This document shows, in pieces, positions 3,998-18,761 of a stretch of 64,000 nucleotides of DNA (position 1 is the stretch's first letter; each line of letters begins with the position of its first letter). Below the pieces are notes generated by a model, which ran no database searches, was not told the DNA's origin, and saw nothing but the letters and a program-made list of their open reading frames with translations. The position numbers and the translations under genes were made by a program. Source of the DNA: Paraburkholderia sp. BL23I1N1 (GTDB lineage: Bacteria > Pseudomonadota > Gammaproteobacteria > Burkholderiales > Burkholderiaceae); the NCBI RefSeq assembly GCF_003610295.1, contig NZ_RAPV01000001.1:806001-870000 (forward strand), in the 5' to 3' direction.

Positions 3998-5464
3998 GTG
4001 TTTGAGTCAACGGTCACCCGAGGGCGCGTATTCACCGACGAGACTGGTATCTCGTACGTGATTCCCGTCCTCCTGACCATAAACGGCCCGGTCGAGGTCC
4101 TGGTCGACTACCTGCTTGAACATTGGGATTCTCGCAGTCCAGCCTGGATGCTGAAGGTAGTCCGAGCAGTGCGGTTGTTCTTGGATTACGTAGACGCGCA
4201 CCCCGGCTACGACGATGAGCAAGCCGTATTTGTGAATTTCCGGCAGCGTCTGCTCACAGGGTCCATCAGCGTCACGGGAGACGACCCTAGCGGCCTATGG
4301 TGGACCGCCCGACGATTCGGCGAATCGAGTCGCATCATCATCAACCTCACAGACTTCTTCAACTGGTGGGCAGAGAAGTATCCCGGTAAGCACAATCCAG
4401 CCAAGACTTGGGTGGGAAGTCGATACGACCGGCGATTGGCCGAAGCGGCTTACATATATCGGCGGAACTCTGCTTTCCTTGGGCACACCTGGTCCACAGT
4501 TCAGGAAACGAGTCGTACTCCTGGTCAGCATAGCGGGACACGATACCGGCACAAGACTCCGCGGGTCGAGCAGGAGGTGCCTCGCTCATTTCCTGAAAGC
4601 CGGATTCTGGACCTCATCCTGAAAGGGTTCAAAGTCGGTCGGAGATACAACTACCGCGACATGCTCATCACACTCCTGCTCAACGGAGCGGGCTTCCGTA
4701 TGTCAGAACCGTTCCATCTCTATCTTTGGGACGTGATGGAGGACCCAAGTCACAAGGGACGAGCATTGGTGCTCATCCACCATCCCACTTGGGGGGCAGG
4801 GCCTCTCGACCCGAAGTGGGTCGATGCAGCCGGTAATCAGCGGACAGGTAATCGCGCTGAGTACCTAGCTGAGCGATTCGGACTTGCACCGCGTGACTGG
4901 GACTTGTCCACCTCTGCGGCCGGCTGGAAAGGAGGTATGCACGAGACGCAATTTGGTGGTTATTACAAACAAGCGTACTGGTTTGTGCCGGAGTTTGGAG
5001 AACTCTTCTGGGACATCTGGCACCTGTACATGGAACAGGTCCAACGGATAGACCCGGCTTTGCGTCATCATCCGTTTGCGTTTCTAAATACGGCCCGTGA
5101 CCCCAAGGGAGCTCCCTACAAAATCGGGAAGTTCGAAGAGTCTCACGCGGATGCAGTGCGTCGTATCGGGCTAATCCCGGCTATGCACTTCGGTACTCAC
5201 GTTCATGGGCATCGCCATGCTTACGGAACACGGCTTCGTAAGGCTGGAGTCAGCAAAGAGATGATTCGACGGTTCATGCACCACGTCGACCTCCAGAGTC
5301 AAGACGTGTACACCGCAGCGGACCGCGCGGAGTGCATAGAGCATCTGGCCAAAGCAGTCGACAGGCTTAACACGATGAGTGCGGAGCTTCGCGCCCAAAT
5401 CGTCAAGGTGAACCGGGACCACGCTTCGAATCTGTTATCTCCTTCAATACATCAGTATAGCTAA
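3998..5464 (+). CDS. gmtY: Gamma-mobile-trio recombinase GmtY (tyrosine recombinase)
   Basis: 488 residues from a GTG start with GGGGA just upstream. The C-terminal half has the tyrosine-recombinase set: R234 in NGAGFRMSEPFHL, an HxxR box at H403-R406 (HGHR), a histidine pair at 428-429 and the likely nucleophile Y438 in SQDVYTAAD. The N-terminal half is a plausible core-binding domain (YLLEHWDSRSPAWMLKVVRAV). It starts a three-gene run, six bases before gmtZ. Size, order and partners match the trio described as marking mobile defence islands in gammaproteobacteria; here the host is a betaproteobacterium. The tyrosine-recombinase call is firm; the GmtY name rests on synteny and recall of the family. 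All catalytic residues seem present, so it may be active. Confidence 0.8.
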   Translation: MFESTVTRGRVFTDETGISYVIPVLLTINGPVEVLVDYLLEHWDSRSPAWMLKVVRAVRLFLDYVDAHPGYDDEQAVFVNFRQRLLTGSISVTGDDPSGLWWTARRFGESSRIIINLTDFFNWWAEKYPGKHNPAKTWVGSRYDRRLAEAAYIYRRNSAFLGHTWSTVQETSRTPGQHSGTRYRHKTPRVEQEVPRSFPESRILDLILKGFKVGRRYNYRDMLITLLLNGAGFRMSEPFHLYLWDVMEDPSHKGRALVLIHHPTWGAGPLDPKWVDAAGNQRTGNRAEYLAERFGLAPRDWDLSTSAAGWKGGMHETQFGGYYKQAYWFVPEFGELFWDIWHLYMEQVQRIDPALRHHPFAFLNTARDPKGAPYKIGKFEESHADAVRRIGLIPAMHFGTHVHGHRHAYGTRLRKAGVSKEMIRRFMHHVDLQSQDVYTAADRAECIEHLAKAVDRLNTMSAELRAQIVKVNRDHASNLLSPSIHQYS

Positions 5465-5470
5465 GCCACC

Positions 5471-8380
5471 ATGAGAAAGAAAAAGAAGCTTTCTAGGTCG
5501 TACGTCAAAGCGAAGAAGGTAGCTGCATCGTTTGATAGCATCCGAGAAGCCCTTGCGGCTGAGTGTCAGAGAGACAAAGATTCTGGAATATCGTTTGCAC
5601 AAATCGCAGACAAGCTTAACCGTCAAGGGCTCCGCACAAAGACTGGTCGACTATGGTGTCAAGGTAACGTTTTTCATTTGCTTAAGAACCCTAAGCCTCC
5701 TGTTGAAAAGCCGAAGTCCAAAGCGGCTGTTGCACGTGAAAAGCGTGCCAAGAAGGGAATGCTGCGACGCACTGATAAGCGGTTAGGATGGGTTGCTGCG
5801 GAACATCCTGAACTTGAGAAGTGGCGTGTACTTGCCGTCCAGTGGCTTAAAGGTAAGGACCAAGGGCTCGGAGCCGCCCTGCAAGGCGTGAACAATTTCA
5901 TCGGATTCTTGGTTAAGTGCAAGCTGCCGGTGGAGCCGGCTGAACTTTTTCTTTCACGAACAAAGGTGCCTGACCTTTACGAAACAACTTGGGGAAAAAT
6001 TCGCACGCGAAACCTAGTGGTTCTTAACAACCTGGTTTATTCATTTCTCGAATGGGTGCTGACGCAGCCTGACTTTTGCGAGGAGGATGACTTTGGTCGG
6101 CTTGAAACGTCGCCTGCGTTTCGAAATCCGGTTCCCCGTCTGTCCGCAAGTGGACTGATGACTCATGTTGAAAGCGTCCGGGCAACATTGCCCTATGGGT
6201 ATATCGAAGAGCTCCGAGAGATGATTGCTGAGGGGCCGGATTTTCGTGACTGGGTGTGGGCCCAAGGTGCCTTGGGAAAGACCCCCGCGGAAGTAGTCAG
6301 AGGCTTGCATCCCCAACTGGCTTCGACTTGGAAGGATGCGGAAGACGTCGATAAGATAGCGCCCATATGGTTTGAGGTTGACAAGAATCTGATAGACGAG
6401 TCCGACCCGGATTGTGTGTGGCGTATCAGGGAGCGGGTTATTAGGGCGGAACCTGGCATTGCGTACGGAAGCCATAGGACAGAGACCATCTATGAGATGT
6501 GGAGTCCAGTGCGGTGGGTCGCTCTCTTGGTAAAGCTGCAACTTCCATTGCGTACATTTCAAGTACGGATGCTTGACTCGGGTGAGGCGGATACCTGGCG
6601 ATGGCAAGGCGGTGATTGGAAGTTGAACCAAGGTGGCCTCGCGCTCGGGTCCGAGTCAAAGCCTTACGCAAACGGTGTCTTTTTGAGACCGACCGCAATC
6701 GCAGATGGGGTTGCGAAGTTGCTGCTGCACGTCAACACAAACAAGACGGCGGACATTGGTAAGGAAGGCAATCAGAAGGGATACGATGTTCCCTGGATGG
6801 TGGACGGGCCACCTCACCAGAACCCTTTCTATTGGTTCGAGAAGCTGCGCCGGTGGCAAGAAAAGTACAACCCGCTGAAAAAGCTGACGCAATGGAAGGA
6901 TTTGGACACCAGACACCTTCCGGTCAAATCCGACGTGCAGCTTGCGGCCTATCCGGACACGGCCTTTCTATTTCGGACGCCGGAGACGACGGACCGTCCT
7001 GATTTTCCTTTGACCATCACGGTTATGGACCGTCCGTGGTTTTTGTGTTTGCAGAGGCTCGAGCAACGGCTTGAAGCTCGCGGAGAAAAGTTACCAGGCG
7101 GGAGACCTATTCGTCTGCTGCCTGACGCGGCACTGCACAAGCGGAATGTCACTACGACCTTGTTCCCGTTGCACAGTCTACGTGTGTCGCTTATCACAGC
7201 CCTAGCGATTGACGGTGAGGTACCGCTTGCAATCTTGCAGAAGATTGCTGGCCACAGCCGCTTGGTCATGACGCTGTATTACACAAAGCCCGGTGTGCAG
7301 CACGCGATGCAAGCCATACAGGCGGGAGTGGAGCGCCTGAATGAGGCGGCAGGGGACACTATCATCGATTGGCTTGCTAACGCGGAGTACACACAACTCG
7401 TCAGAAATATCATCGCAAACAGCCCTGCAAGCCTCGCCGCAGCGGTTCCGGAGCACGTTCAAACGCGTACACCCGCCGGCTGGATGGTGATGGTTGACGG
7501 GCTGTGCCTCGTGGGAGGAAACACTTCAGAAGTGGAAACGTCAGGTTGCCACAACGGCGGTCCAAACATCGGCAATGACACTAATCCTCGATACGCTCCC
7601 ACGCCGGGAGGTCCCCGGAATTGTCCTCGTTGCCGATGGTTCATCACACTGCCGGCTTTTTTGCCGCAGCTTGCAGCTCGTTGGAACAACGTGATGTATC
7701 ACTGCACTGAAGCTAAGCTGCAGGTGGTCATTGCTGAAAAGCGGTTCCGGGAACTCGATGATTGGCGTGCCGAAGTGTTGTTCGAAGACAAACCCTTCGA
7801 GCAGCAGAAGCAATATGTAGAGGCCGAACGACAGCGGGAGCAAGCCATCACCAAGTTCGACAACCTCACGATGACAGTTGCAGCTGTCACGAAGTTGATT
7901 ACACAGTGCCGCCGAGCGCTGAAAAACGGAGACGATACCGCGCTTGTCGCAAATGGAGGCATCGCAGAATTTGATTTTGCAATCGAGGAAGTTGACTCCG
8001 AGCTGTTGCAACTCTCCGGCGTCTGCGAAGGGTCCATTCTGTATCCGGACCTCGACCCGGGAAAGGCTGTGCTCCGGCAGAGCCAAATTCTGGATGCAGC
8101 ACTCATGCGTGATGACATGAGACCGGCCTTCCTCCTGCTCACGGAAGAGGAGCAGAAGCTCGCGGGCAGTGCCGCGATGCGCCACTTGGCCCAGCGGATG
8201 AATCCCGACAATCCCGGCCTGGGACGCTACGAGGTCATCTCGCTCATCGATGCAGGAGCCTCTTTGAAGGACCGACTGGGCCCGGCAGTAGATGAAGCGT
8301 TGAGGTTCGTAACGGGAGCTGAGCCTCCGCGGCACGTCATTTCTTTCGAAGGTCGGCTCGAGCCGGTGGCCGCCCCATGA
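5471..8380 (+). CDS. gmtZ: Gamma-mobile-trio integrase GmtZ (formerly VPA1269 family)
   Basis: 969 residues. The first 80 are basic and contain a helix-turn-helix-like stretch (ISFAQIADKLNRQGLRTKTG). The centre carries a tyrosine-recombinase-like catalytic end: H568-S-L-R571, then GHSRLVMTLYY with H595 and tyrosines 603/604. After it comes a cysteine set, C679, C693-H694 and C718-x-x-C721 (CPRC), which may bind zinc, then a mostly helical tail with a charged segment around residues 770-800 (KQYVEAERQREQAITKF). Length and position between gmtY and gmtX fit GmtZ. It overlaps gmtX by four bases (ATGA), suggesting translational coupling. The role in excision or insertion is inferred from the family. 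Confidence 0.8.
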   Translation: MRKKKKLSRSYVKAKKVAASFDSIREALAAECQRDKDSGISFAQIADKLNRQGLRTKTGRLWCQGNVFHLLKNPKPPVEKPKSKAAVAREKRAKKGMLRRTDKRLGWVAAEHPELEKWRVLAVQWLKGKDQGLGAALQGVNNFIGFLVKCKLPVEPAELFLSRTKVPDLYETTWGKIRTRNLVVLNNLVYSFLEWVLTQPDFCEEDDFGRLETSPAFRNPVPRLSASGLMTHVESVRATLPYGYIEELREMIAEGPDFRDWVWAQGALGKTPAEVVRGLHPQLASTWKDAEDVDKIAPIWFEVDKNLIDESDPDCVWRIRERVIRAEPGIAYGSHRTETIYEMWSPVRWVALLVKLQLPLRTFQVRMLDSGEADTWRWQGGDWKLNQGGLALGSESKPYANGVFLRPTAIADGVAKLLLHVNTNKTADIGKEGNQKGYDVPWMVDGPPHQNPFYWFEKLRRWQEKYNPLKKLTQWKDLDTRHLPVKSDVQLAAYPDTAFLFRTPETTDRPDFPLTITVMDRPWFLCLQRLEQRLEARGEKLPGGRPIRLLPDAALHKRNVTTTLFPLHSLRVSLITALAIDGEVPLAILQKIAGHSRLVMTLYYTKPGVQHAMQAIQAGVERLNEAAGDTIIDWLANAEYTQLVRNIIANSPASLAAAVPEHVQTRTPAGWMVMVDGLCLVGGNTSEVETSGCHNGGPNIGNDTNPRYAPTPGGPRNCPRCRWFITLPAFLPQLAARWNNVMYHCTEAKLQVVIAEKRFRELDDWRAEVLFEDKPFEQQKQYVEAERQREQAITKFDNLTMTVAAVTKLITQCRRALKNGDDTALVANGGIAEFDFAIEEVDSELLQLSGVCEGSILYPDLDPGKAVLRQSQILDAALMRDDMRPAFLLLTEEEQKLAGSAAMRHLAQRMNPDNPGLGRYEVISLIDAGASLKDRLGPAVDEALRFVTGAEPPRHVISFEGRLEPVAAP

Positions 8381-9072
8381 AAGAAACTACCGACATGCAT
8401 CCCAACACAGTTCTCGAAGCGATGTTGGCTTTAGGGGCGCACCCGACAAAGCGTCGCAATCTGAACCTGATTCATCAGGTTTGCGAGGAACGGCACAAAC
8501 TAGGGAGCCGAGACTTCACGCTTCGGTCCATAGGCGAGTTCGTCGAAGCTCGTGGCGGCTTGAAGGTCAAGGCGCTTTGGAACGAGACCTCTGAGGACTA
8601 TCGAAAGCTCATTGAGGCTTGGGAGGCGTTCGCGGGCGACCCGCCAAGCTCTCGACGGGTGGAGAAGCCTAATCCGGCAGACGCGCTGCTACGAACGATT
8701 TCTGACCCTGCCACGCGCATCATTGTGGAGAAGCTCGTCCGAGACAATAAAGCTCTGCGTGCTGAGGTGAATATTCTGAAGTCTCAAACGACCTTGACCA
8801 TCGACCGGCGGCCCATTGCAGCCACGAAAACGGCACAGGAAACGACGGACAGCGGGGTCACGGTAGAAGTCCATACCGGCCCGTCATTGAGCGTACTGGA
8901 GCGTGAAGCGCTTGAACACGCCGTGTCGAAGACGTTCTGGGATGACGAAGGGTGGGTAGAAGAAAAGCACGGCCGAATAGTGCGCTCGGCGGGACCGAAC
9001 GGGTTGTCACGTACTATCTTCAAGCCAGGCTTCGTGACAGCGATTCGCCGGATACTCGACGCCAAAAAATGA
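8377..9072 (+). CDS. gmtX: Gamma-mobile-trio protein GmtX
   Basis: 231 residues, starting inside the gmtZ stop codon. No enzyme motif is visible. The first 90 residues look like a helical DNA-binding unit (FTLRSIGEFVEARGGLKVKALWNETSEDYRKLIEAW); a possible coiled coil follows at about residues 110-140 (IVEKLVRDNKALRAEVNILK). The C-terminal third is mixed charge with SVLEREALEHAVS. It is the third member of the trio and likely an accessory protein of the recombination complex. The gene ends 26 bases before the tmRNA terminator, which is read from the opposite strand. The name rests on order, size and context. Confidence 0.7.
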   Translation: MKETTDMHPNTVLEAMLALGAHPTKRRNLNLIHQVCEERHKLGSRDFTLRSIGEFVEARGGLKVKALWNETSEDYRKLIEAWEAFAGDPPSSRRVEKPNPADALLRTISDPATRIIVEKLVRDNKALRAEVNILKSQTTLTIDRRPIAATKTAQETTDSGVTVEVHTGPSLSVLEREALEHAVSKTFWDDEGWVEEKHGRIVRSAGPNGLSRTIFKPGFVTAIRRILDAKK

Positions 9073-9097
9073 ATATGAGGGCGCCTGCGGTCGAAAG

Positions 9098-9132
9098 TGA
9101 AAAGGCCCTGCTGCGTTAGCAGCCAGGGCCTT
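9098..9132 (-). terminator. Rho-independent terminator of the tmRNA gene
   Basis: AAGGCCCTG (9102-9110) pairs with CAGGGCCTT (9124-9132), with an inner CTGC/GCAG stem around GTTA. Read on the minus strand the hairpin is followed by TTTTC. It lies five bases beyond the tmRNA CCA end. Confidence 0.85.
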
Positions 9133-9136
9133 AGAT

Positions 9137-9511
9137 TGGTGGAGCTGGGGGGAATCGAACCCCCGTCCGCAAGACTTTGCCAACAAGTTCTACATGCGTA
9201 GCTGACTGATTTGAGTCTCGCCATTACCGTCGCCCAGCAGCAGGCTACGGTAACCGCCAGTCACTAAGTCTCGTCCAGAACCGAGTGACCCAGTCCTGAA
9301 CCAGCCAATGTAAATGACCGCTCTGTCTCTAGCCTTTCAGCCTTCAACCCGGACCATCGGCCTGCCGGTGAGCGGCTCGCCGCGATTAAGCAGCGAGAGC
9401 GTACGAGTTATCGTTTGCGCTTAAGTGTTTTCCAGACAGATTAACGAGCGAACTGGAGTGCTCGGCATGCCCTTCCTGACGCCATACCCACGTCGAAACC
9501 AGGTCAGCCCC
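9137..9511 (-). ncRNA. ssrA: Transfer-messenger RNA (tmRNA), intact copy
   Basis: 375 nt, complete. The 5' end GGGGCUG pairs with the 3' CAGCUCC before ACCA, including the G3-U wobble used by alanyl-tRNA synthetase. A T-arm GGGGGUUCGAUUCCCCCC is present. The tag frame (9418 to 9386) codes ANDNSYALAA then UAA, starting at a GCA resume codon after the expected ACUUAAGCGC context. It rescues stalled ribosomes by trans-translation with SmpB. The acceptor stem resembles the gammaproteobacterial form more than the broken copy upstream, and the gene lies next to a mobile element, so it may have been imported. A TAAAAT hexamer 14-19 bases before the 5' end may serve as the -10. Confidence 0.95.
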
Positions 9512-9595
9512 GGAAACTCTATTTTACCAGCGTTCGCAGACCCGCTGGTCACTCGGCAGAGGCGCTGTTACGCGTCCGCTGCCTTTGATGCATCT

Positions 9596-9674
9596 ATGGA
9601 TGTCTATGGAAACATCCATACTTCAGAATCGGCCCGAAACCCACAGTGGGCGGCGTTGCTCTCTCAAGTATGGA
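9596..9674. repeat. Nested inverted repeats between intact and broken tmRNA
   Basis: ATGGATGT (9596-9603) pairs with ACATCCAT (9612-9619), and TCCATACTTCAG (9615-9626) pairs at 11 of 12 positions with CTCAAGTATGGA (9663-9674). The arms share bases, so two alternative folds are possible. There is no open gene here. The site lies at the presumed island junction upstream of the intact tmRNA. Confidence 0.5.
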
Positions 9675-9696
9675 GGCTTAGGGGGGCGGAGCGTTT

Positions 9697-9787
9697 TCAG
9701 TTACGTTTTTCCCATTGATTAACGAGGTGACGGGTCCTCGGTATGCCCTAGCCGCTTCGCAACCCCTGTCGAAACCAGGTCGCCCCC
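9697..9787 (-). pseudogene. 5' fragment of a second, resident-type tmRNA gene
   Basis: Read on the minus strand it begins GGGGGCGACCTGGTTTCGAC and keeps the tmRNA 5'-domain pattern, including GGGCATACCGAG and CTCGTTAATC, which align with GGGCATGCCGAG and CTCGTTAATC of the intact copy. Homology stops near GTAACTG, where the tag frame should begin; no tRNA-like 3' half follows. From memory the 5' sequence is closer to known Burkholderia tmRNAs than the intact copy is. I read it as the resident ssrA cut by the island. It cannot make tmRNA. Confidence 0.7.
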
Positions 9788-9981
9788 GCGGTTCGTTGCC
9801 CAATACTTATGGGCCAACGTAGATTTTACAATAGTTTGACGGCCACGTCCCAGGTGATTGTCTGGCCGTCTTGCTATCTCGCTGTCTCGACGCATTGCTG
9901 CACTGTCGCGGCGAGGAGGCAAGACGCCGCATTGCGTTGTGTGCGCCGCATCTGCCGCGTTCGCTGCACGCGCTCAACCGC

Positions 9982-10695
9982 TTACTCGATGTCGCGCAGC
10001 AGCTTCTGCAATTCAGCAGGTGATTGCACGACATGCTGCGCGTGCCATTGCGTCGGCGGAATATCGTTGCCGCAGTACCCGTAGGCGGCCGCGATGGTCT
10101 TCATGCCGGCCGCGAAACCCGCCTGCACATCGCGCAGGTCGTCGCCGACATAGACGATACGCTCCGGCACCACATCCAGTTCGCGCGCAGCGTGCAACAG
10201 TGGCGCGGGGTGTGGCTTCGAGTGCGATGTCGTGTCGCCGCTCACCACGCAGCCCGCGCGTTCTTCGAGGCCGAGTTGCGCAACCAGCGGCTCGGTGAGC
10301 CTTGCCACCTTGTTCGTCACGATGCCCCAGCGCACGCCCCGTGCGTCGAGATCGTCGAGCAATTCGGGGATGCCGGGAAACAGCGTGGTCTCGATGCACA
10401 AGTCCGCCTCGTAGTTGGCGAGAAACTCCTCGCGCATCGACATGAACTCGTGATCCTCAGGGCCGATGCCGAAGGCCCCGCCGATCAGTCCGCGCGCACC
10501 CGCGGACGCGAGCGGCCGCAGGTCTTCGAGCGGCACCATCTCGAGGCCGCGATCATGTCGCATCTTGTTGACGGCAGCCGCGAGGTCGGGCGCGGTGTCG
10601 GCCAGCGTGCCGTCGAGGTCGAACAGGACAGCCTGGCAAAGACCGAGCGCGTTGTCGTTGTCTTCGCGTTGGGGCAGGGGCGTGGGATCGCTCAT
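9982..10695 (-). CDS. gph: Phosphoglycolate phosphatase
   Basis: 237-residue HAD-family phosphatase that hydrolyses 2-phosphoglycolate to glycolate and phosphate, a salvage step for DNA-repair and oxygenase by-products. Motifs in order: DLDGT at 26-30 with nucleophile D26, TNK at 127-129, K160 in KPHP, and GDD at 184-186. The length is slightly above the family norm because of a disordered N-terminus of about 20 residues. It lies 32 bases after ubiG on the same strand, a pairing common in Burkholderiales, and is the first resident gene to the right of the island. Confidence 0.92.
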   Translation of the reverse strand: MSDPTPLPQREDNDNALGLCQAVLFDLDGTLADTAPDLAAAVNKMRHDRGLEMVPLEDLRPLASAGARGLIGGAFGIGPEDHEFMSMREEFLANYEADLCIETTLFPGIPELLDDLDARGVRWGIVTNKVARLTEPLVAQLGLEERAGCVVSGDTTSHSKPHPAPLLHAARELDVVPERIVYVGDDLRDVQAGFAAGMKTIAAAYGYCGNDIPPTQWHAQHVVQSPAELQKLLRDIE

Positions 10696-10727
10696 TGATT
10701 GGATTGAGTCCGGCAGGTCGGGGCGGA

Positions 10728-11426
10728 TCAGACGTCGCGGCGGCAGGCGAGCATGTAGTTCACGCTCGAGTCGGCGGACAACGTGAAATGCTTGCTGAGC
10801 GGGTTATAAACGATACCTTTGATGTCTACCGTGCGCAGGCCTGCGGCACGCACGAAGCCCGCCAGCTCCGACGGACGGATGAAGCGCGCGTAATCGTGCG
10901 TGCCCTTAGGCAGCATTCGCGCGATATATTCGGCGCCGATTACCGCGAACAGATACGACTTCACATTGCGATTCAGGGTGGAGAAGAACACCCAGCCGCC
11001 CGGTTTCACCAGTGTCTTGCATGCCTCGACGATGGCGGCCGGTTCGGGCACGTGCTCGAGCATTTCCATGCAGGTAACGACGTCGAACGTGCCCGGTTCG
11101 CGGGCCGCGAGTGCTTCAGCGGCGATTTCTTCGTAATTGACGGTGACACCGCTTTCGAGGCTGTGAAGATCCGCCACGCCGAGCGCCTGGCTCGACAGGT
11201 CGATTCCCTTCACGTGCGCTCCCAATCCAGCCATCGACTCCGACAGAATGCCGCCACCGCAGCCGATATCCAACACGGTTTTGCCCGCGAGATGCGCGTG
11301 CGTGTCGATCCAGCTCAGGCGAACCGGATTGAGTTCATGCAGCGGTTTGAATTCGGCGTTAGGGTCCCACCAACGGTGTGCGAGGTCGCTAAATTTCTGC
11401 AGTTCGTGGGGATCGGCGTTGGTCAT
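10728..11426 (-). CDS. ubiG: Ubiquinone biosynthesis O-methyltransferase UbiG
   Basis: 232 residues from ATG 11426; the frame is open further upstream but that extension lacks family character. It performs both O-methylation steps of ubiquinone synthesis with S-adenosylmethionine. The SAM-binding motif I is VLDIGCGGG at residues 51-59, and the start [19 protein letters not shown] is characteristic of Ubi[10 protein letters not shown] and [12 protein letters not shown] are the later methyltransferase motifs. It is co-directional with gph, which follows it. Confidence 0.95.
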
Positions 11427-11594
11427 AGCGGAAACTGCCTCGATAAGAGCGTTGAGCGGGCGCTCGAGGATAAACCCTGAGTATATAGGCCGAGCGACAG
11501 GGCGGCAAAATGCCGCGCAGCGGCTGGCGCGTCCTGTTCCGGCAGTCGGGCGCGTACTCGGAGGAGAGAGCGAGCGGCGCCCACGGCAGCGGCA

Positions 11595-11624
11595 TAAAAA
11601 AAGCCCCGCGGAAGCGGGGCTTTG
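11595..11624 (-). terminator. Terminator downstream of ompA-family gene
   Basis: AAGCCCCGC-GGAA-GCGGGGCTT hairpin; on the minus strand it is followed by TTTTTTT. It lies 21 bases beyond the ompA-family stop codon. Confidence 0.9.
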
Positions 11625-11644
11625 ATACTGCGGTAATTTGTAGC

Positions 11645-12292
11645 TTACTGCTTCGAAGTACCGACAACTTCGACTTCCACGCGACGATCCGGTGCGAGGC
11701 AGGCGACGAGTTGCTTGTGGTTCTTCTGGTTGCAACCGGTCGTGACCGGGTTGCGCTTGCCCTTGCCTTCCGTATAGATACGGTTGGATTCGATGCCCTT
11801 GCTGACGAGGTACGACTTCACAGCTTGAGCACGGCGCAGCGACAGACGGTCGTTGTACTTGTCCGAACCGATACGGTCCGTGTAACCCGTTGCGACGATG
11901 ACTTCCAGGTTCAGCGAACCGACCTTCGATGCCAGATCGTCCAGCTTCTCCTTGCCAGCCGGCTTCAGGATAGCCTTGTCGAAGTCGAACAGAGCGTCAG
12001 CTTGATACGTAATCTTTTGGCTCGTAATAGCCGGTGCAGGTGCGACCGGAGCCGGCGGGGTCGGAGCCTGGGCAACCAGGGCGCCATCGCACTTAGCGTT
12101 GGCCGTTGCCGGCGTCCAGAATGCATCGCGCCAGCAAAGCTCGTTCGTGCCGTTCATCCACACGTATTCGCCGGTACCATTCACCCAGTTGTCGTTCGTA
12201 GCTTGTCGCGACGCCGGCACCGATTGCGCCATGGCGGATGCAGCCATAACTGCGGTAGCTGCAATGAACGCGAGCTTTGAAAGTTTATTCAT
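11645..12292 (-). CDS. ompA: OmpA family outer-membrane protein
   Basis: 215 residues. Signal peptide at 1-22 (cleavage after AMA), a short middle domain with two cysteines (C53, C68), a proline/alanine linker at 72-88 and an OmpA C-terminal peptidoglycan-binding domain at about 95-210. That domain has D139 in [10 protein letters not shown] and R154 in [13 protein letters not shown], the residues expected to bind diaminopimelate. A second cysteine pair (C187, C198) lies in the C-terminal domain. No large beta-barrel precedes it, so it is not classical E. coli OmpA but the short Burkholderia type that tethers outer membrane to cell wall. Divergent from gyrA. Confidence 0.88.
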
Positions 12293-12791
12293 ATTTCTCC
12301 TCTCGAAATTGAGATTACCGCAGGTTTACTGCGAGCCTGTTGACGAAGACAAGTCATACATTGCTCGAAGTATAACATCGGTGTAGAACAAAAAACGTGC
12401 TGTGTAGACTTCGAGCAGTGTCTAACTCTTTGTGCGTTGGCATTTTGCCATATCGTTCCCTTCCAACGATAAAAAAATCTGCCCCCGATCAAATCACCCT
12501 CCAATTGTGGTGCATGCGCAACAGAAGCAATCCGCTGTACCCACCGCCAGTCATGGCTGAGCGGCGGATTGGCCCACGCACGAATCGAGCCTGCCCCCGA
12601 TTCGATAAGGGGGCGTCCAGGCGCCGTTTCCGTTCACCTGCTAATAGGTATACGTACCCCAGTCGGGGGCGGATGCGCGACATGTTAGAATCGCGTGATG
12701 CGTTGCGCCTGCAATGCTTTCGCGAAGGCGCGGCGAGTTGGGCTTCAAGCGAGCTTCACGCCGTCGCCTTGGCACGTAAAAGATACGGATA
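12293..12791. promoter_or_regulatory. Divergent ompA / gyrA control region
   Basis: About 500 bases without a gene. A minus-strand TATACT at 12369-12374 is a good -10 for ompA. The motif GCCCCCGA occurs at 12481-12488 and 12593-12600 and inverted at 12663-12670; the second copy forms a hairpin with GGGGGC at 12609-12614. These may be sites for a regulator or supercoiling-sensitive control of gyrA, which is a guess. Confidence 0.45.
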
Positions 12792-15428
12792 ATGGATCAA
12801 TTCGCCAAAGAGACTCTGCCAATCTCCCTAGAGGAGGAAATGCGCCGTTCGTATCTCGATTACGCGATGAGCGTGATCGTGGGGCGTGCGCTTCCCGATG
12901 TTCGCGATGGCCTGAAGCCGGTACACCGGCGCGTGCTGTACGCGATGCACGAACTGAACAACGACTGGAACCGGGCTTACAAGAAGTCGGCGCGTATTGT
13001 CGGCGACGTCATCGGTAAATATCACCCGCACGGCGACACGGCTGTCTACGACACGATTGTCCGTATGGCGCAGAATTTCTCGCTGCGCTATATGCTGGTG
13101 GACGGTCAGGGCAACTTCGGTTCGGTCGACGGCGACAACGCCGCGGCGATGCGGTACACCGAAATCCGCATGGCAAAGATCGGCCACGAACTGCTGGCCG
13201 ACATCGACAAGGAAACGGTCGACTTCACGCCGAACTACGACGGCAGCGAAAACGAACCGGCCATCCTGCCGGCGCGTATTCCCAATCTGCTGATCAATGG
13301 CTCGTCCGGTATTGCGGTCGGCATGGCAACCAACATCCCGCCGCACAACCTCAACGAGGTTGTCGACGCATGTCAGCACCTGCTGAAAAACCCGGAAGCC
13401 ACGATCGACGAACTGATCGAGATCATCCCGGCGCCTGACTTCCCGACCGCCGGCATCATCTACGGCGTGGCCGGTGTGCGCGATGGTTACCGCACGGGTC
13501 GCGGCCGCGTGGTGATGCGCGCGCTCACGCATTTCGAGGAAATCGACCGCGGTCAGCGCATGTCGATCATCGTCGACGAATTGCCGTATCAGGTGAACAA
13601 GCGCTCGCTGCTGGAGCGCATCGCCGAACTGGTCAACGAGAAGAAGCTCGAAGGCATCTCCGACATCCGCGACGAATCCGACAAGAGCGGCATGCGCGTC
13701 GTGATCGAGCTGAAGCGTGGCGAGGTGCCGGAAGTCGTTCTCAACAATCTGTATAAGGCGACCCAGCTTCAGGACACCTTCGGCATGAACATGGTCGCGC
13801 TGGTCGACGGCCAGCCGAAGCTGCTGAACCTGAAGGAAATGCTGTCGTGCTTCTTGTCGCATCGCCGGGAAGTGCTGACGCGGCGCACTGTATACGAACT
13901 GCGCAAAGCCCGAGAACGTGGTCATGTGCTCGAAGGTCTGGCAGTCGCACTCGCCAACATCGACGAGTTCATCGCGCTCATCAAGGCCGCGCCGACTCCG
14001 CCGATCGCGAAGCAGGAATTGATGGCGCGTCCGTGGGATTCGTCGCTGGTGCGCGAAATGTTGTCCCGCGCCGAGACGGAAAACGCGTCGGCTGGCGGTC
14101 GCGAGGCTTATCGTCCGGAAGGTTTGAATCCGTCCTTCGGCATGCAGTCCGACGGCCTCTACCGCTTGTCCGACACCCAGGCTCAGGAAATCTTGCAGAT
14201 GCGTCTGCAACGCCTGACGGGTCTGGAGCAGGACAAGATCATCGGCGAGTACCGCGAAGTGATGGCGCAAATCGCCGACCTGCTGGACATTCTGGCTCGC
14301 CCGGAACGCATTACGGCGATCATCGTCGACGAACTGACGTCGATCAAGGCCGAATTCGGCGACGCGCGCCGCTCGAAGATCGAGCTGAACGCCACCGAGC
14401 TGAACACCGAAGACCTGATTACGCCGCAAGAGATGGTCGTGACCATGTCTCATGCCGGCTATGTGAAATCGCAGCCGTTGTCCGAATATCGCGCCCAGAA
14501 GCGCGGAGGTCGCGGCAAACAGGCGACTTCCATGAAGGAAGACGACTGGATCGACACGCTCTTCATCGCCAACACGCACGATCACATCCTGTGCTTCTCG
14601 AATCGCGGCCGCGTCTACTGGGTCAAGGTTTATGAAGTGCCGCAGGGGTCGCGGAACTCGCGCGGCCGTCCGATCGTCAATATGTTCCCGTTGCAGGACG
14701 GCGAAAAGATCACGGTCGTACTGCCGGTCAAGGAGTTCACGGCAGATAAATTCGTGTTCATGGCCACCGCGTTAGGAACGGTAAAGAAGACGCCGCTGGA
14801 AGCCTTCAGCCGGCCGTTGCGCAAGGGTATTATTGCGGTCGGTCTGGATGACGGCGACTACCTGATCGGCGCCGCCATCACGGACGGCCAGCATGACGTG
14901 ATGCTGTTCTCGGATTCCGGCAAGGCAGTGCGTTTCGACGAGAACGACGTCCGTCCGATGGGCCGTGAGGCACGTGGTGTGCGCGGCATGCAGCTCGAAG
15001 ACGGTCAGAGCGTGATCGCGTTGCTGGTGGCCGGCGACGAGCAGCAGTCGGTGCTTACCGCAACCGAAAACGGCTATGGCAAGCGCACGCCGATCACTGA
15101 GTACACGCGTCACGGGCGCGGTACGAAGGGAATGATTGCGATCCAGACGTCGGAGCGCAACGGCAAAGTCGTCGCCGCCACGCTGGTGGATCAGGAAGCG
15201 CAGATCATGCTGATCACCGATACGGGCGTGCTGATTCGTACGCGTGTCTCGGAAATTCGGGAAATGGGGCGCGCAACCCAAGGTGTTACACTCATCAGCC
15301 TTGACGAAGGGACCAAGCTTTCAGGTCTGCAACAGGTTGCTGAGGCGGAAGCGGAGGGTGATGTGGAAGGCGACACCGAAGGTCCTGCCGAAGGCGACAA
15401 CGGCGGTGATGAGGGTGGTGCGGCCTGA
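12792..15428 (+). CDS. gyrA: DNA gyrase subunit A
   Basis: 878 residues; the breakage-rejoining subunit of the A2B2 gyrase that adds negative supercoils. The catalytic tyrosine is Y122 in [10 protein letters not shown]. The quinolone-determining region reads [10 protein letters not shown], with T83 and D87, so no classical resistance change at 87; Thr at 83 replaces the E. coli Ser. The winged-helix and tower region run to about 520, then the C-terminal beta-pinwheel with a GyrA-box-like segment [11 protein letters not shown] near 573. The last 30 residues are an acidic Glu/Gly/Asp tail. The ribosome site is weak. It stands upstream of serC-pheA as in many beta- and gammaproteobacteria. Confidence 0.97.
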
Positions 15429-15559
15429 TCCGCGTCGGCGGTTTTCAGTCTCAGTTATTGGTTGAAAGCTGCGCAGGGAACAATGGCGTGTCAAGCCGGT
15501 GTCGGCCAGATACGCATCCCGTGCAGCTTGCAGTTCAAGTTAATTTCTCTTAGGGAGTA

Positions 15560-16165
15560 ATGATGCAAAAACGATTCAAACAACTGATGTTGCTGGCTGC
15601 TCTCGTGCCGACTTTCGCTATGGCTCAAGCTCTGCAGAGCTCGGCTCCGGCGGCTCCGGCTGCTGCCGCGGCACCGGTTGATCCGGCCAAGCAGGCTGCA
15701 ATCAAGGACCTGCTGGACGCAATCGACGCACAGAAGCTCGTTGGCGCAATCGGCAACAGCGCGCAAATGCAAGCTAAGCAACTGGTTCCGGCTATCCTGT
15801 CGGACGCCCTGAGCGAAAACAAGACGATGACGGACAAGCAGAAGCAGGCTTCCGTCCCGACGCTGCAAAAGAACGCTGTGCCGAAGCTGGTTGACGGCGC
15901 AGGCCAGGTGTTCGCAACGGATTCCTTCCGTCAGGACGCAATGCAAGCTCAGTACGACGCTTACGCGAAGTACTACAGCACGTCGGAAATCAAGGATCTG
16001 ACGGCGTTCTACAAGAGCCCGACCGGCCGCAAGTTCATCCAGGTGCAAGACCAGGTTGGCCGCGACGTCGTGAATGGTTTGATGCAAAAGTACATGCCGC
16101 AATCGATCAAGGCAACGCGCGACCAGGCTGACAAGGAAGTCGCTTCGGTCAAGCCGGCTAAGTAA
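15560..16165 (+). CDS. DUF2059 domain secreted protein
   Basis: 201 residues with a signal peptide (cleavage after FAMA near residue 22), an alanine/proline linker to about residue 42 and a helical DUF2059-type domain with YDAYAKYYSTSEIKDLTAFYKSPTGRKF. The function of the family is unknown; location is probably periplasmic. Two adjacent ATGs start the gene, preceded by AGGGAG. It is inserted between gyrA and serC, as in related Burkholderia genomes, and has its own terminator. Confidence 0.85.
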   Translation: MMQKRFKQLMLLAALVPTFAMAQALQSSAPAAPAAAAAPVDPAKQAAIKDLLDAIDAQKLVGAIGNSAQMQAKQLVPAILSDALSENKTMTDKQKQASVPTLQKNAVPKLVDGAGQVFATDSFRQDAMQAQYDAYAKYYSTSEIKDLTAFYKSPTGRKFIQVQDQVGRDVVNGLMQKYMPQSIKATRDQADKEVASVKPAK

Positions 16166-16517
16166 GCAAGCTAAGTAAGTAAGCTAAGCCAGCTAGTTGA
16201 GCCCGAAGGTCGAAAGGCTGCGCTGACGTCGCGCTAGCCGCCGCTTGGCAAGCTATTCGGCGTGCTGAGCGGCGTGCCGGGTTTGGCGGGTTGGCGGCGA
16301 CAATGCGATAATGGCTGTTTGCGCACACGCGCAGACGGCCATTTTCTTTTTTTGAGCGCGAAATTGTCGCCAAACACGCGTCGTCAAACTCGCGTTGTCG
16401 AGTTCGCTGCGCTAACTTTGCAGTGGCTGCCGTTGCAGCGGCTGCCTTCGCGGCCGCCAACTTCGCCGATTTTTGCGCGATCTATTCGTTTTTCGCGCCA
16501 GCTTCCAGGATCTCACG
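16166..16517. other. Intergenic region DUF2059 gene to serC
   Basis: 352 bases. It starts with short CTAAGTAAG-like repeats just after the stop codon, then contains the terminator at 16310-16353, and should hold the serC promoter in the remaining 160 bases. I see no gene and no clear -35/-10 pair. Confidence 0.4.
16310..16353 (+). terminator. Terminator of the DUF2059 gene
   Basis: AATGGC (16310-16315) pairs with GCCATT (16338-16343), continuing inward through TGTTTGCGC / GCGCAGACG with G-U pairs around ACAC, followed by TTTTCTTTTTTT. Confidence 0.85.
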
Positions 16518-17600
16518 ATGCGCGTCTTTAATTTCTCCGCCGGCCCAGCAGCCATGCCCGAAGAAGTGCTGCGTCAGGCAGCCGACGAGATGCTCAATTG
16601 GCAGGGAAGCGGCATGAGCGTGATGGAAATGAGCCATCGCGGCAAAGAATTCATGTCGATCCATGAGGAAGCGCTAGTCGATCTGCGCGAGTTGCTCGAG
16701 GTGCCCGCCAGCCATCGCATCCTGTTTCTGCAAGGCGGCGGCCTCGGCGAAAATGCAATCGTGCCGATGAACCTGATGGGCGCGAAAGCGCGCGCGGATT
16801 TCGTCGTGACGGGTTCCTGGTCGCAGAAGTCGTTCAAGGAAGCGCAAAAGTACGGTACGGTGCATCTGGCGGCGAGCGGGCAAACGGCCGATGGCTTCAC
16901 GCGCGCGCCGGCACGCTCGGAATGGCAACTGTCGGACGATCCCGCGTACGTGCATCTGTGCACCAACGAGACCATTCACGGCGTCGAGACGTTCGAGATT
17001 CCCGACCTCGGCGATATTCCGCTGGTGGCGGACGCCTCGTCGCACATCTTGTCGCGCCCGATGGACATCGCCAAATACGGCGTGCTGTTCGGTGGCGCGC
17101 AGAAAAACATCGGCATGGCGGGCGTGACGGTCGTGATCGTGCGCGAAGACATGCTGGGCCGCGCTCAATGGATTTGCCCGTCGGCATTTGAATGGAAAAC
17201 CGTCGCCGAGAACAATTCGATGTACAACACGCCGCCCACCTACGCAATTTACGTCGCCGGGCTCGTGTTCAAGTGGTTGAAGAAGCAGGGCGGCCTTGCC
17301 GCGATGGAAGCGCGTAACCTCGAAAAATCGAAGCTGTTGTACGACGCGATCGATTCGAGCGGCTTCTATCTGAACAAGGTCGAGCGTGGCTCGCGCTCGC
17401 GGATGAACGTACCGTTTTTCCTCGCCGACGAGTCGCGCAACGAAGACTTCCTGGCCGGCGCGAAAGCGCGGGGAATGGTGCAGCTAAAGGGCCACAAGTC
17501 CGTCGGCGGCATGCGGGCGTCGATTTATAACGCCGTCCCGCTCGAAGGCGTCAAAGCGCTTGTCGAATACATGAAGGAATTCGAACAGCGCAGCGCCTGA
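16518..17600 (+). CDS. serC: Phosphoserine aminotransferase
   Basis: 360 residues from ATG 16518 ([18 protein letters not shown], the family start). PLP-dependent class V aminotransferase converting 3-phosphohydroxypyruvate to phosphoserine; it also acts in pyridoxine synthesis. K196 in [13 protein letters not shown] binds [15 protein letters not shown] at 69-80 is the phosphate-binding region. First gene of the serC-pheA-hisC-tyrA-aroA-cmk-rpsA-ihfB supraoperon, in which small gaps suggest shared transcripts. Confidence 0.97.
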
Positions 17601-17678
17601 TCGTCTTCGATATTCAGGCACGCGCATCTTTTCCAGCACGCATTTGTGCAGCAGCTACCGACAGAGCCGTTTTCACGC

Positions 17679-18761
17679 ATGGACGACGAACTCAATACCC
17701 GACTCAAGCCCCTTCGCGAACGCATCGACGCGCTCGACGCGCAGCTGATCGCACTCCTCAATCAGCGTGCCGCCGTGGCGCTCGAAGTGGGCGAGGTGAA
17801 GAAGCATTTCAATGCACCGGTGTTCCGCCCGGAGCGCGAACAGCAGGTGATCGCGCGCCTGCAGGATATGAGCGACGGCCCGCTGGCCAGCGAACATATC
17901 AGCGCGATCTGGCGCGAGATCATGGCCGCGAGCCGCGCGCTCGAAAAGACCATCAAGGCCGCGTATCTCGGGCCGGTCGGCACGTATAGCGAACAGGCCA
18001 TGCACGAGTACTTCGGTCAGTCGATCGAAGGGTTGCCGTGCCCGTCGATCGACGAAGTATTCCGCTCGGTCGAAGCAGGCGCAGCCGAATTCGGCGTTGT
18101 GCCGGTCGAGAATTCGACCGAAGGCGCGGTGTCGCGCACGCTCGATCTGCTGCTGCAAACCCAACTCACGATCGGCGGCGAACTGGCCTTGCCGATTCAC
18201 CACAATCTCCTGACGCTGAACGGCGGTCTCACCGGCGTGACTCGCGTATGCGCGCACGCGCAGGCGCTCGCCCAGTGCCAGGGCTGGCTCGCGACCAACG
18301 CGCCGCATCTCGAGCGTCAGGCTGTGTCGAGCAATGCCGAAGCCGCGCGCATGGCGGCGGACGATCCAACTGTCGCCGCGATCGCCGGCGATCGCGCCGC
18401 AACGCATTACGGTCTGCAGGTCGCGTACGCCCTCATCCAGGACGATCCGCACAACCGCACGCGTTTCGTGATGATCGGCAAGGAGCGCACCGGCGTCAGC
18501 GGGCGCGATCAGACGTCGTTGATCACTTCGGTGGCGAACGAGCCGGGCGCCCTGTTCAAGTTGCTCGAGCCGTTGGCCCGCCATAGCGTATCCATGACCC
18601 GTTTCGAGTCGCGCCCGGCGCGCGTCGGCACGTGGGAGTATTACTTCTATATCGACGTCGAAGGCCATCGCGACGAACCGGCAGTTGCCGCCGCGCTTGC
18701 CGAACTCGGCCAGAAGGCCGCGTTCCTGAAGATACTCGGCTCGTATCCGCGCGCCTGCTAA
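17679..18761 (+). CDS. pheA: P-protein: chorismate mutase / prephenate dehydratase
   Basis: 360 residues from ATG 17679. Residues 1-90 are an AroQ-type chorismate mutase (LRERIDALDAQLIALLNQRAAVALEVGEVKK). Residues about 95-270 are prephenate dehydratase, with AYLGPVGTYSEQA and VPVENSTEGAVSRTL. The C-terminal ACT domain carries GALFKLLEPLA and the ESRP motif that senses phenylalanine. Together these give phenylpyruvate from chorismate, with feedback inhibition expected. The open frame extends 33 bases upstream without family similarity. Confidence 0.96.
   Translation: MDDELNTRLKPLRERIDALDAQLIALLNQRAAVALEVGEVKKHFNAPVFRPEREQQVIARLQDMSDGPLASEHISAIWREIMAASRALEKTIKAAYLGPVGTYSEQAMHEYFGQSIEGLPCPSIDEVFRSVEAGAAEFGVVPVENSTEGAVSRTLDLLLQTQLTIGGELALPIHHNLLTLNGGLTGVTRVCAHAQALAQCQGWLATNAPHLERQAVSSNAEAARMAADDPTVAAIAGDRAATHYGLQVAYALIQDDPHNRTRFVMIGKERTGVSGRDQTSLITSVANEPGALFKLLEPLARHSVSMTRFESRPARVGTWEYYFYIDVEGHRDEPAVAAALAELGQKAAFLKILGSYPRAC

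Follow-up and report, generated by a model that had tools for sequence, protein, structure and literature searches.

The GMT trio and a second ssrA gene

The window, by which we mean the whole analysed stretch of 64,000 nt from Paraburkholderia sp. BL23I1N1 (the source genome, G000; contig NZ_RAPV01000001.1, positions 806,001 to 870,000), carries near its left edge three genes in a row on the plus strand. These are gmtY, encoding a tyrosine recombinase (3998-5464, GTG start, 488 aa; NCBIfam NF040693), gmtZ, encoding an integrase (5471-8380, 969 aa; NCBIfam NF047926 and Pfam Integrase_2), and gmtX (8377-9072, 231 aa; NCBIfam NF040692). The initial annotation had proposed a complete gamma-mobile-trio (GMT) of 488, 969 and 231 residues, to be checked against the Gmt families. 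The three open reading frames are present with this size and order, and each product scores above the cut-off of its curated NCBIfam equivalog (recomb_GmtY NF040693, 427.5 bits vs. 340; integrase_GmtZ NF047926, 873 bits vs. 600; GmtX NF040692, 192.4 bits vs. 40), while the remaining recombinase models among the NCBIfam matches to the trio stay far under their own cut-offs. In Pfam, GmtY reaches 25.3 bits with Phage_integrase, under the cut-off of 27.1, and GmtZ matches Integrase_2 (327.8 bits) and Recombinase (24.7 bits, cut-off 21.1). The latter match covers residues 36-74 and thus falls into an N-terminal stretch of some 70 additional residues that is absent from the 866-aa GmtZ of locus L069. 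GmtX has nothing above cut-off in Pfam and no recombinase match in Pfam or NCBIfam.

The residues singled out by the initial annotation are conserved. In an alignment of six GmtY sequences, the catalytic residues R234, H403 and R406 of the HxxR motif, H428, H429 and Y438 are invariant. H568, R571, H595, Y603 and Y604 as well as C679, C693, C718 and C721 are invariant among three GmtZ sequences, so the remark on an HxxR motif, tyrosines and a possible zinc cluster holds.

A tmRNA gene starting 64 bp past gmtX, and with it a split native ssrA, had been passed over. According to ARAGORN, the window encodes one tmRNA, on the minus strand (9137-9511), with the tag ANDNSYALAA and a tag reading frame at 9386-9418 on the same strand (coding part 94-126 of the gene). 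The gene fits Rfam RF00023 over its full length (194.1 bits, model positions 1-374). A hairpin with a short T-run, seen by eye on the minus strand after this gene (9099-9133), is a possible terminator and is not among the calls of the terminator scan. The promoter scan from 9050 to 9980 gave no sigma-70-like site, which counts against the explanation preferred below.

The element lies inside native ssrA

Past the complete tmRNA gene follow, from left to right, the right end of the element (9669-9691, plus strand), a 6-bp core (9692-9697, minus strand), the 5' part of the native ssrA (9698-9787, minus strand) and native chromosome (9788-18297). The 5' part was assigned by alignment to the native ssrA of the relatives G017, G001 and G014. 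The corresponding 3' part is located 100 kb to the left of it (L068:9297-9570), where Rfam detects a second, broken tmRNA (genome 715297-715586, 77.6 bits). The interruption in the native gene falls at nt 91-96, where its tag frame starts, and the 6-bp core lies beside each half; the right copy deviates from the native core at its first base.

Comparison with relatives reveals the empty site. The sister genome G017 is collinear with genome positions 712133-715576 (90.8% identity) and 815692-824297 (93.2%, to L077), and its two collinear blocks overlap by the 6 bp of the core; G001 and G014 yield the identical 6 bp. The insert thus measures 100,115 bp, and its GC content is 57.4%, vs. 62-63% in the flanks. 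G017 has an intact ssrA, yet it contains two GmtZ matches elsewhere in its genome. The comparison with a sister strain lacking the island, which the initial annotation had proposed, supports its view of the locus as an inserted island, as the site is empty in G017, G001 and G014. Its description as an ordinary GMT island stands as far as trio and island are concerned; the element is more specific than that, since it sits inside ssrA and carries an ssrA of its own.

Sequence relationships mark the complete gene for tmRNA (9137-9511) as foreign. Compared with the ssrA of G017 from the tag to the 3' end, the native remnant shows 99% identity and the carried copy 60%. The 3' part of the carried gene is likewise 60% identical to the native remnant and 81% identical to the ssrA carried by a related element in genome G226. 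Past the island, the relatives from the same genus with the best matches align only from window position 9692 on, with the exception of a match of 60-80 bases to the 3' end of the tmRNA at 75-80% identity.

Other accounts of the split gene were considered and rejected. The tmRNA at 9137-9511 is not the native ssrA bordered on its left by a 3'-end island, as the native remnant lies at a distance of 100 kb; a search of the 80 kb leftward of the window for a repeat of the 3' end of the carried ssrA (12- and 14-base words, short blastn) gave chance-level matches only. A permuted, two-piece tmRNA does not account for the split, as the beta_tmRNA model reaches at best 24.8 bits in the source genome (cut-off 84). 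Nor does a group I intron in the T-loop: the gene is interrupted in its tag frame, and no model other than that for tmRNA matched the window at its gathering score.

The left end of the element (genome 715577-715602; L068:9577-9602) is the inverted partner of the right end, which reads TATGGA-N6-GGGGGG-N5. All eight ends of the source element and of three related elements described below consist of TATGGA (once TGTGGA), a spacer (9-10 nt at left ends, 6-7 nt at right ends), 5-6 G, a further 5-6 nt and the core. Across 120 kb around the island, the motif is confined to the two ends, compared with a mean of 1.04 matches after single-base shuffling of this stretch; 933 kb from other loci contain two matches. 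The motif is short and was first derived from these ends, so that its weight rests on its position and on the agreement among elements.

A shared layout in four genera

GMT trios related to that of the source genome are found in Ramlibacter sp. H39-3-26 (G226), Paralcaligenes ureilyticus (G227) and G171, with about 60-70% identity for GmtY and GmtZ and 50-58% for GmtX. The seven of their proteins that were run against NCBIfam (one GmtY, three GmtZ and three GmtX) all score above cut-off. In a tree of 44 rows, the GmtZ proteins of the four elements form one clade with a support of 100/100. In all three further genomes, the native ssrA is interrupted where its tag frame starts; its two halves are kept, and a complete ssrA lies inside the element. 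Element sizes are about 100.1, 30.3, 66.3 and 62.9 kb for the set G000, G171, G226 and G227. The left junction of G171 is 3 nt off the core when compared with the ssrA of its genus, three bases next to the core being absent. While the shared ssrA layout is based on these four cases, the empty-site comparison covers the source genome.

Each of the four genomes has one complete (194-206 bits) and one broken (64-78 bits) tmRNA match above cut-off. Under stricter filters, which lose some weak matches and could miss a broken remnant, a control set of 44 further genomes of the order gave a single tmRNA match (E<=1e-14) in 42 and none in two; 21 of the 44 already had GmtZ matches when selected, three of these under the family cut-off. 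G324, which lacks a standard tmRNA match, has a permuted tmRNA. In G440, a genome with a GmtZ match, neither the standard nor the beta permuted model finds a tmRNA.

The carried ssrA lies just within the right end, in the same direction as the native 5' part, in G000, G226 and G227. In G171, it lies beside gmtX and differs in position and orientation relative to the trio. The carried copies belong to at least three lineages, as judged from an ssrA tree with many weak forks, unsettled bootstrap values and a long-branch warning for the G226 remnant and G019. In G227, carried and native ssrA are 84% identical. The G171 remnant is 98% identical to the ssrA of its own genus, and the carried copy of G171 is 91% identical to the ssrA of G017 and groups with the ssrA of g1 and g24 (99/97). 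Judging by these identities, the substitute appears to have been swapped on one or more occasions. The core is retained, or nearly so, in the carried copies, which we count against the preferred explanation with regard to avoidance of self-insertion. The ssrA carried in G171 has no encoded CCA end (L072:8398-8405); a CCA end can be added by cellular enzymes. This feature of G171 counts against the preferred explanation, as do the differing position and orientation of its carried copy and its left junction.

Cargo of the element

The initial annotation had pointed to the DNA left of the trio as a source of defence systems, and this DNA does contain defence genes: Gabija, a retron-type RT-Toprim and the candidate pair PDC-M65. 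Within the window, all on the minus strand, lie gajA (1-765; PADLOC GajA), whose C-terminal part is outside the window, and the genes of an sce7725-family protein (1023-2321; NCBIfam 234.7 bits, cut-off 60) and an sce7726-family protein (2433-2996; NCBIfam 84.5 bits, cut-off 70). gajB follows gajA outside the window (GajA and GajB in L002). The right cargo block as a whole comprises Gabija, PDC-M65A/B, a DnaE2-type polymerase, the retron RT-Toprim and the sce7725 and sce7726 proteins. The RT-Toprim fusion is of the retron type I-C/Ec67-like kind (L002:2999-4804, genome 788999-790804; PADLOC, 717 bits). The candidate defence pair PDC-M65A/B (L002:12848-16260) has no Pfam match at E<=1e-5. The polymerase is of the error-prone DnaE2 type and lies in the island with two neighbours that appear ImuA- and ImuB-like by eye (L002:6165-11427).

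A left block of catabolic genes (genome 716000-786000; L068, L005, L004 and L003) is also located between the ssrA halves and includes HpaB-, DmpG- and acetaldehyde-dehydrogenase-type genes among the part of its 95 open reading frames that was scanned. An aromatic hydroxylase and meta-pathway-like enzymes are found here, along with transporters and LysR regulators recognized by eye. Among the related loci, the cargo of G171 includes a ThsB-like TIR protein, and that of L107, introduced below, a type II restriction-modification pair.

rarA as a second target

L107, a Burkholderiales MAG whose trio belongs to the sister group of the ssrA-split clade, has rarA cut in two, with the trio between the halves (5' part at about 5070-5474, 3' part at 17922-18779 of L107). 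An intact second rarA starts right after gmtX (13309-14616), and the two halves are 66% and 58% identical to it. L109, the sister of L107, has a rarA at the same place after gmtX (85% identical) on a contig too short to include the target. The identification as RarA is based on NCBIfam matches under the cut-offs of those models and on reading of the sequence. The literature search on rarA as a target or tmRNA as a passenger found nothing on point.

A universal rule by which GMT elements carry their target was rejected, as a comparison of the flanks of 42 GMT loci gave L107 as the one clear case. This comparison of left with right flanks seeks duplicates and so favours target-copy cases; it used flanks of at most 10 kb and missed the known cases L080 and L081. 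Flank matches of 29-38 bp in L086 and L112 and protein matches of 30-38% in L110 and L112 were taken for repeats and paralogues. Several elements outside the ssrA and rarA clades start at another end motif and lie at other sites. L100 and L101 are near-identical GMT elements at different sites and have, upstream of gmtY, another end motif (CCCCCCA..GGAATACATAG in L085, L086-like form) that is common to other loci.

Host range of GMT

The initial annotation had rightly placed the host among the Burkholderiales. Its further claim, that the locus extends the host range of GMT, fails, as GMT is already frequent in betaproteobacteria. GmtZ matches at E<=1e-100 occur in 17 of 144 genomes of the same genus (source genome included), in 16 of 398 genomes of a family sample (query or clade genome included) and in 4 of 16 genomes of the genus of G171 (G171 included); at E<=1e-60, 5 of 399 genomes of an order sample have one (query genome or G171 included). 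Many of the 42 GMT loci in a scan of one genome per species are betaproteobacterial; seven belong to Pseudomonas or Aeromonadaceae, two to Microvirga and two to P. caffeinitolerans. Moreover, NCBI protein names already include "gamma-mobile-trio integrase GmtZ", e.g., in Paraburkholderia phenoliruptrix. Among the 120 matches listed of 1058, 43 GmtZ proteins reach an identity of 54% or more.

Trios outside beta- and gammaproteobacteria occur in L104 and L120 (Microvirga) and in L113, a MAG named Riflebacteria, where misbinning may be the cause. A plasmid collection contains 149 records with GmtZ relatives, all below 60% identity; 91 of these are predicted to be conjugative, with hosts including Burkholderia, Enterobacter, Citrobacter and Klebsiella. 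Scans of IMG/VR gave no match.

A proposed link between the split ssrA and the second copy

The trio, both native halves, the second complete ssrA, the empty site of the source genome, the conserved ends and the four-genus layout can be read directly from the sequences. We consider it probable that a GMT clade uses a 6-bp core in the first codons of the tag frame to insert in mid-ssrA, splits the gene and carries a foreign ssrA that most likely sustains trans-translation. GmtY and GmtZ, assisted by GmtX, would recombine the core with the element ends, as knowledge of the family suggests, and the insertion would cut the native ssrA into a 5' and a 3' piece. We infer that neither native piece still works and that the carried tmRNA is expressed and stands in for the native one: a full ssrA from another lineage would make the loss tolerable, and the carried tmRNA together with host SmpB would restore trans-translation. 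In the best reading, some GMT lineages break up a conserved gene and bring a full replacement for it; the geometry is observed, and expression and rescue are presumed. A broader proposition is slightly favoured, namely that some GMT lineages carry a full-length homologue of the gene they destroy (ssrA or rarA), that the substitute is swapped between hosts over time and that ribosome rescue would then run on the tmRNA of the element, with a possible dependence on the element.

It is unlikely that the carried ssrA is a chance passenger like other cargo, unrelated to the broken native gene. The presence of at least three carried lineages and of two orientations relative to the trio (G171 vs. the others) would fit a passenger, and ssrA is described as both target and passenger of mobile DNA in the available part of one source (Williams 2003, cited in PMC5148205). 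Against this stand the carried copy as the sole complete tmRNA match above cut-off in all four ssrA-split genomes and the like pairing of target and spare at rarA. ARAGORN finds no tmRNA in the other 40 of 42 loci, a weak argument given that the 10-kb flanks also contain none in L080 and L081, where the copies lie further off. A mainly offensive or regulatory tmRNA, which swaps the host tag and thereby alters protein turnover or phage sensitivity, appears similarly improbable. The carried tag does differ from the native tag in all four cases (the native tag of G171 inferred from its genus), and defence genes are among the cargo of G000 and G171, but the ALAA end is kept in all four carried tags, and the case of rarA points to simple replacement of the gene that was split.

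The least probable accounts are two. The 100-kb insert looks composite, with its catabolic and defence blocks, and could represent two islands, a GMT element that split ssrA and another island that brought the complete ssrA and landed alongside. Yet in G000 the carried ssrA is flanked by the trio and the motif of the right end, in G226 and G227 it lies immediately within the right end, and a tmRNA island of the 3'-end type would leave a repeat, whereas the 80 kb searched yielded only chance-level 3'-end matches. The remaining account takes the locus for an ordinary GMT island whose interest lies in a new host class. Trio, insertion and defence cargo are as this account claims, but it is refuted as to novelty by the frequency and existing annotation of GMT in betaproteobacteria. 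The preferred reading remains that of an element which splits ssrA and brings a substitute.

Relation to known elements

GMT islands were reportedly described by Mahata et al. in 2024. The locus resembles them in the order GmtY-GmtZ-GmtX, in scores above the family cut-offs, in defence cargo and in its absence from relatives; it differs from what is known of GMT islands in its target in mid-ssrA, the complete second ssrA and the extra N-terminal stretch of GmtZ. The portions of the GMT literature examined give no insertion sites; the original GMT description lies outside that scope, and an earlier report is possible. A literature search on the names GmtY, GmtZ and GmtX returned, among the matches listed, chance matches as judged by title.

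GmtZ formerly carried the family name VPA1269, according to NCBI double names, and we take VPaI-6 of Vibrio parahaemolyticus to be a GMT island. VPaI-6 lies between VPA1253 and VPA1271 and reaches VPA1270; its site is empty in strains without the island, and the available part of the report gives no tRNA or tmRNA site (PMC1464126). It thus resembles the present element in its GmtZ-family VPA1269 and its empty site and differs, as far as that part of the report goes, in having no tRNA or tmRNA target given.

tmRNA islands with conventional integrases, according to the available parts of the sources, insert at or near the 3' end of ssrA and leave a whole ssrA at the junction while integrated; those of Dehalococcoides insert in the T-loop with a 20-bp repeat (PMC12595487, PMC5148205, PMC3146451). 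The element shares with them the site-specific use of ssrA and, with the Pseudomonas elements described in the accessible part of PMC12595487, defence cargo. Unlike these 3'-end islands, it cuts the tag frame and brings a separate gene. Group I introns in ssrA lie in the T-loop and are spliced out, and permuted ssrA yields a two-piece RNA from one transcript (PMC11915505, in part). Here, too, a tmRNA gene is interrupted or rearranged, but 100 kb separate the pieces. Recombinases-in-trio elements have three tyrosine recombinases, and Tn554 has TnpA, TnpB and TnpC. In both, several adjacent genes of recombinase type serve to move the element (PMC8138268, in part). Consecutive recombinase-type genes are a common feature, whereas the trio matches the Gmt models best and GmtX lacks a recombinase match, a distinction drawn from Pfam and NCBIfam models.

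Implications

tmRNA is present in nearly all bacteria, as stated in the available part of PMC11915505. If the proposed reading is correct, breaking ssrA and supplying a foreign one replaces a core quality-control RNA in one step, which would also give the tag sequence a route to move between lineages. The ends found here are a starting point for mapping the boundaries and targets of GMT elements. Furthermore, the arrangement shows how an island could target the conserved internal sequence of a gene without harm to the host, unlike the conventional repair of the 3' end.
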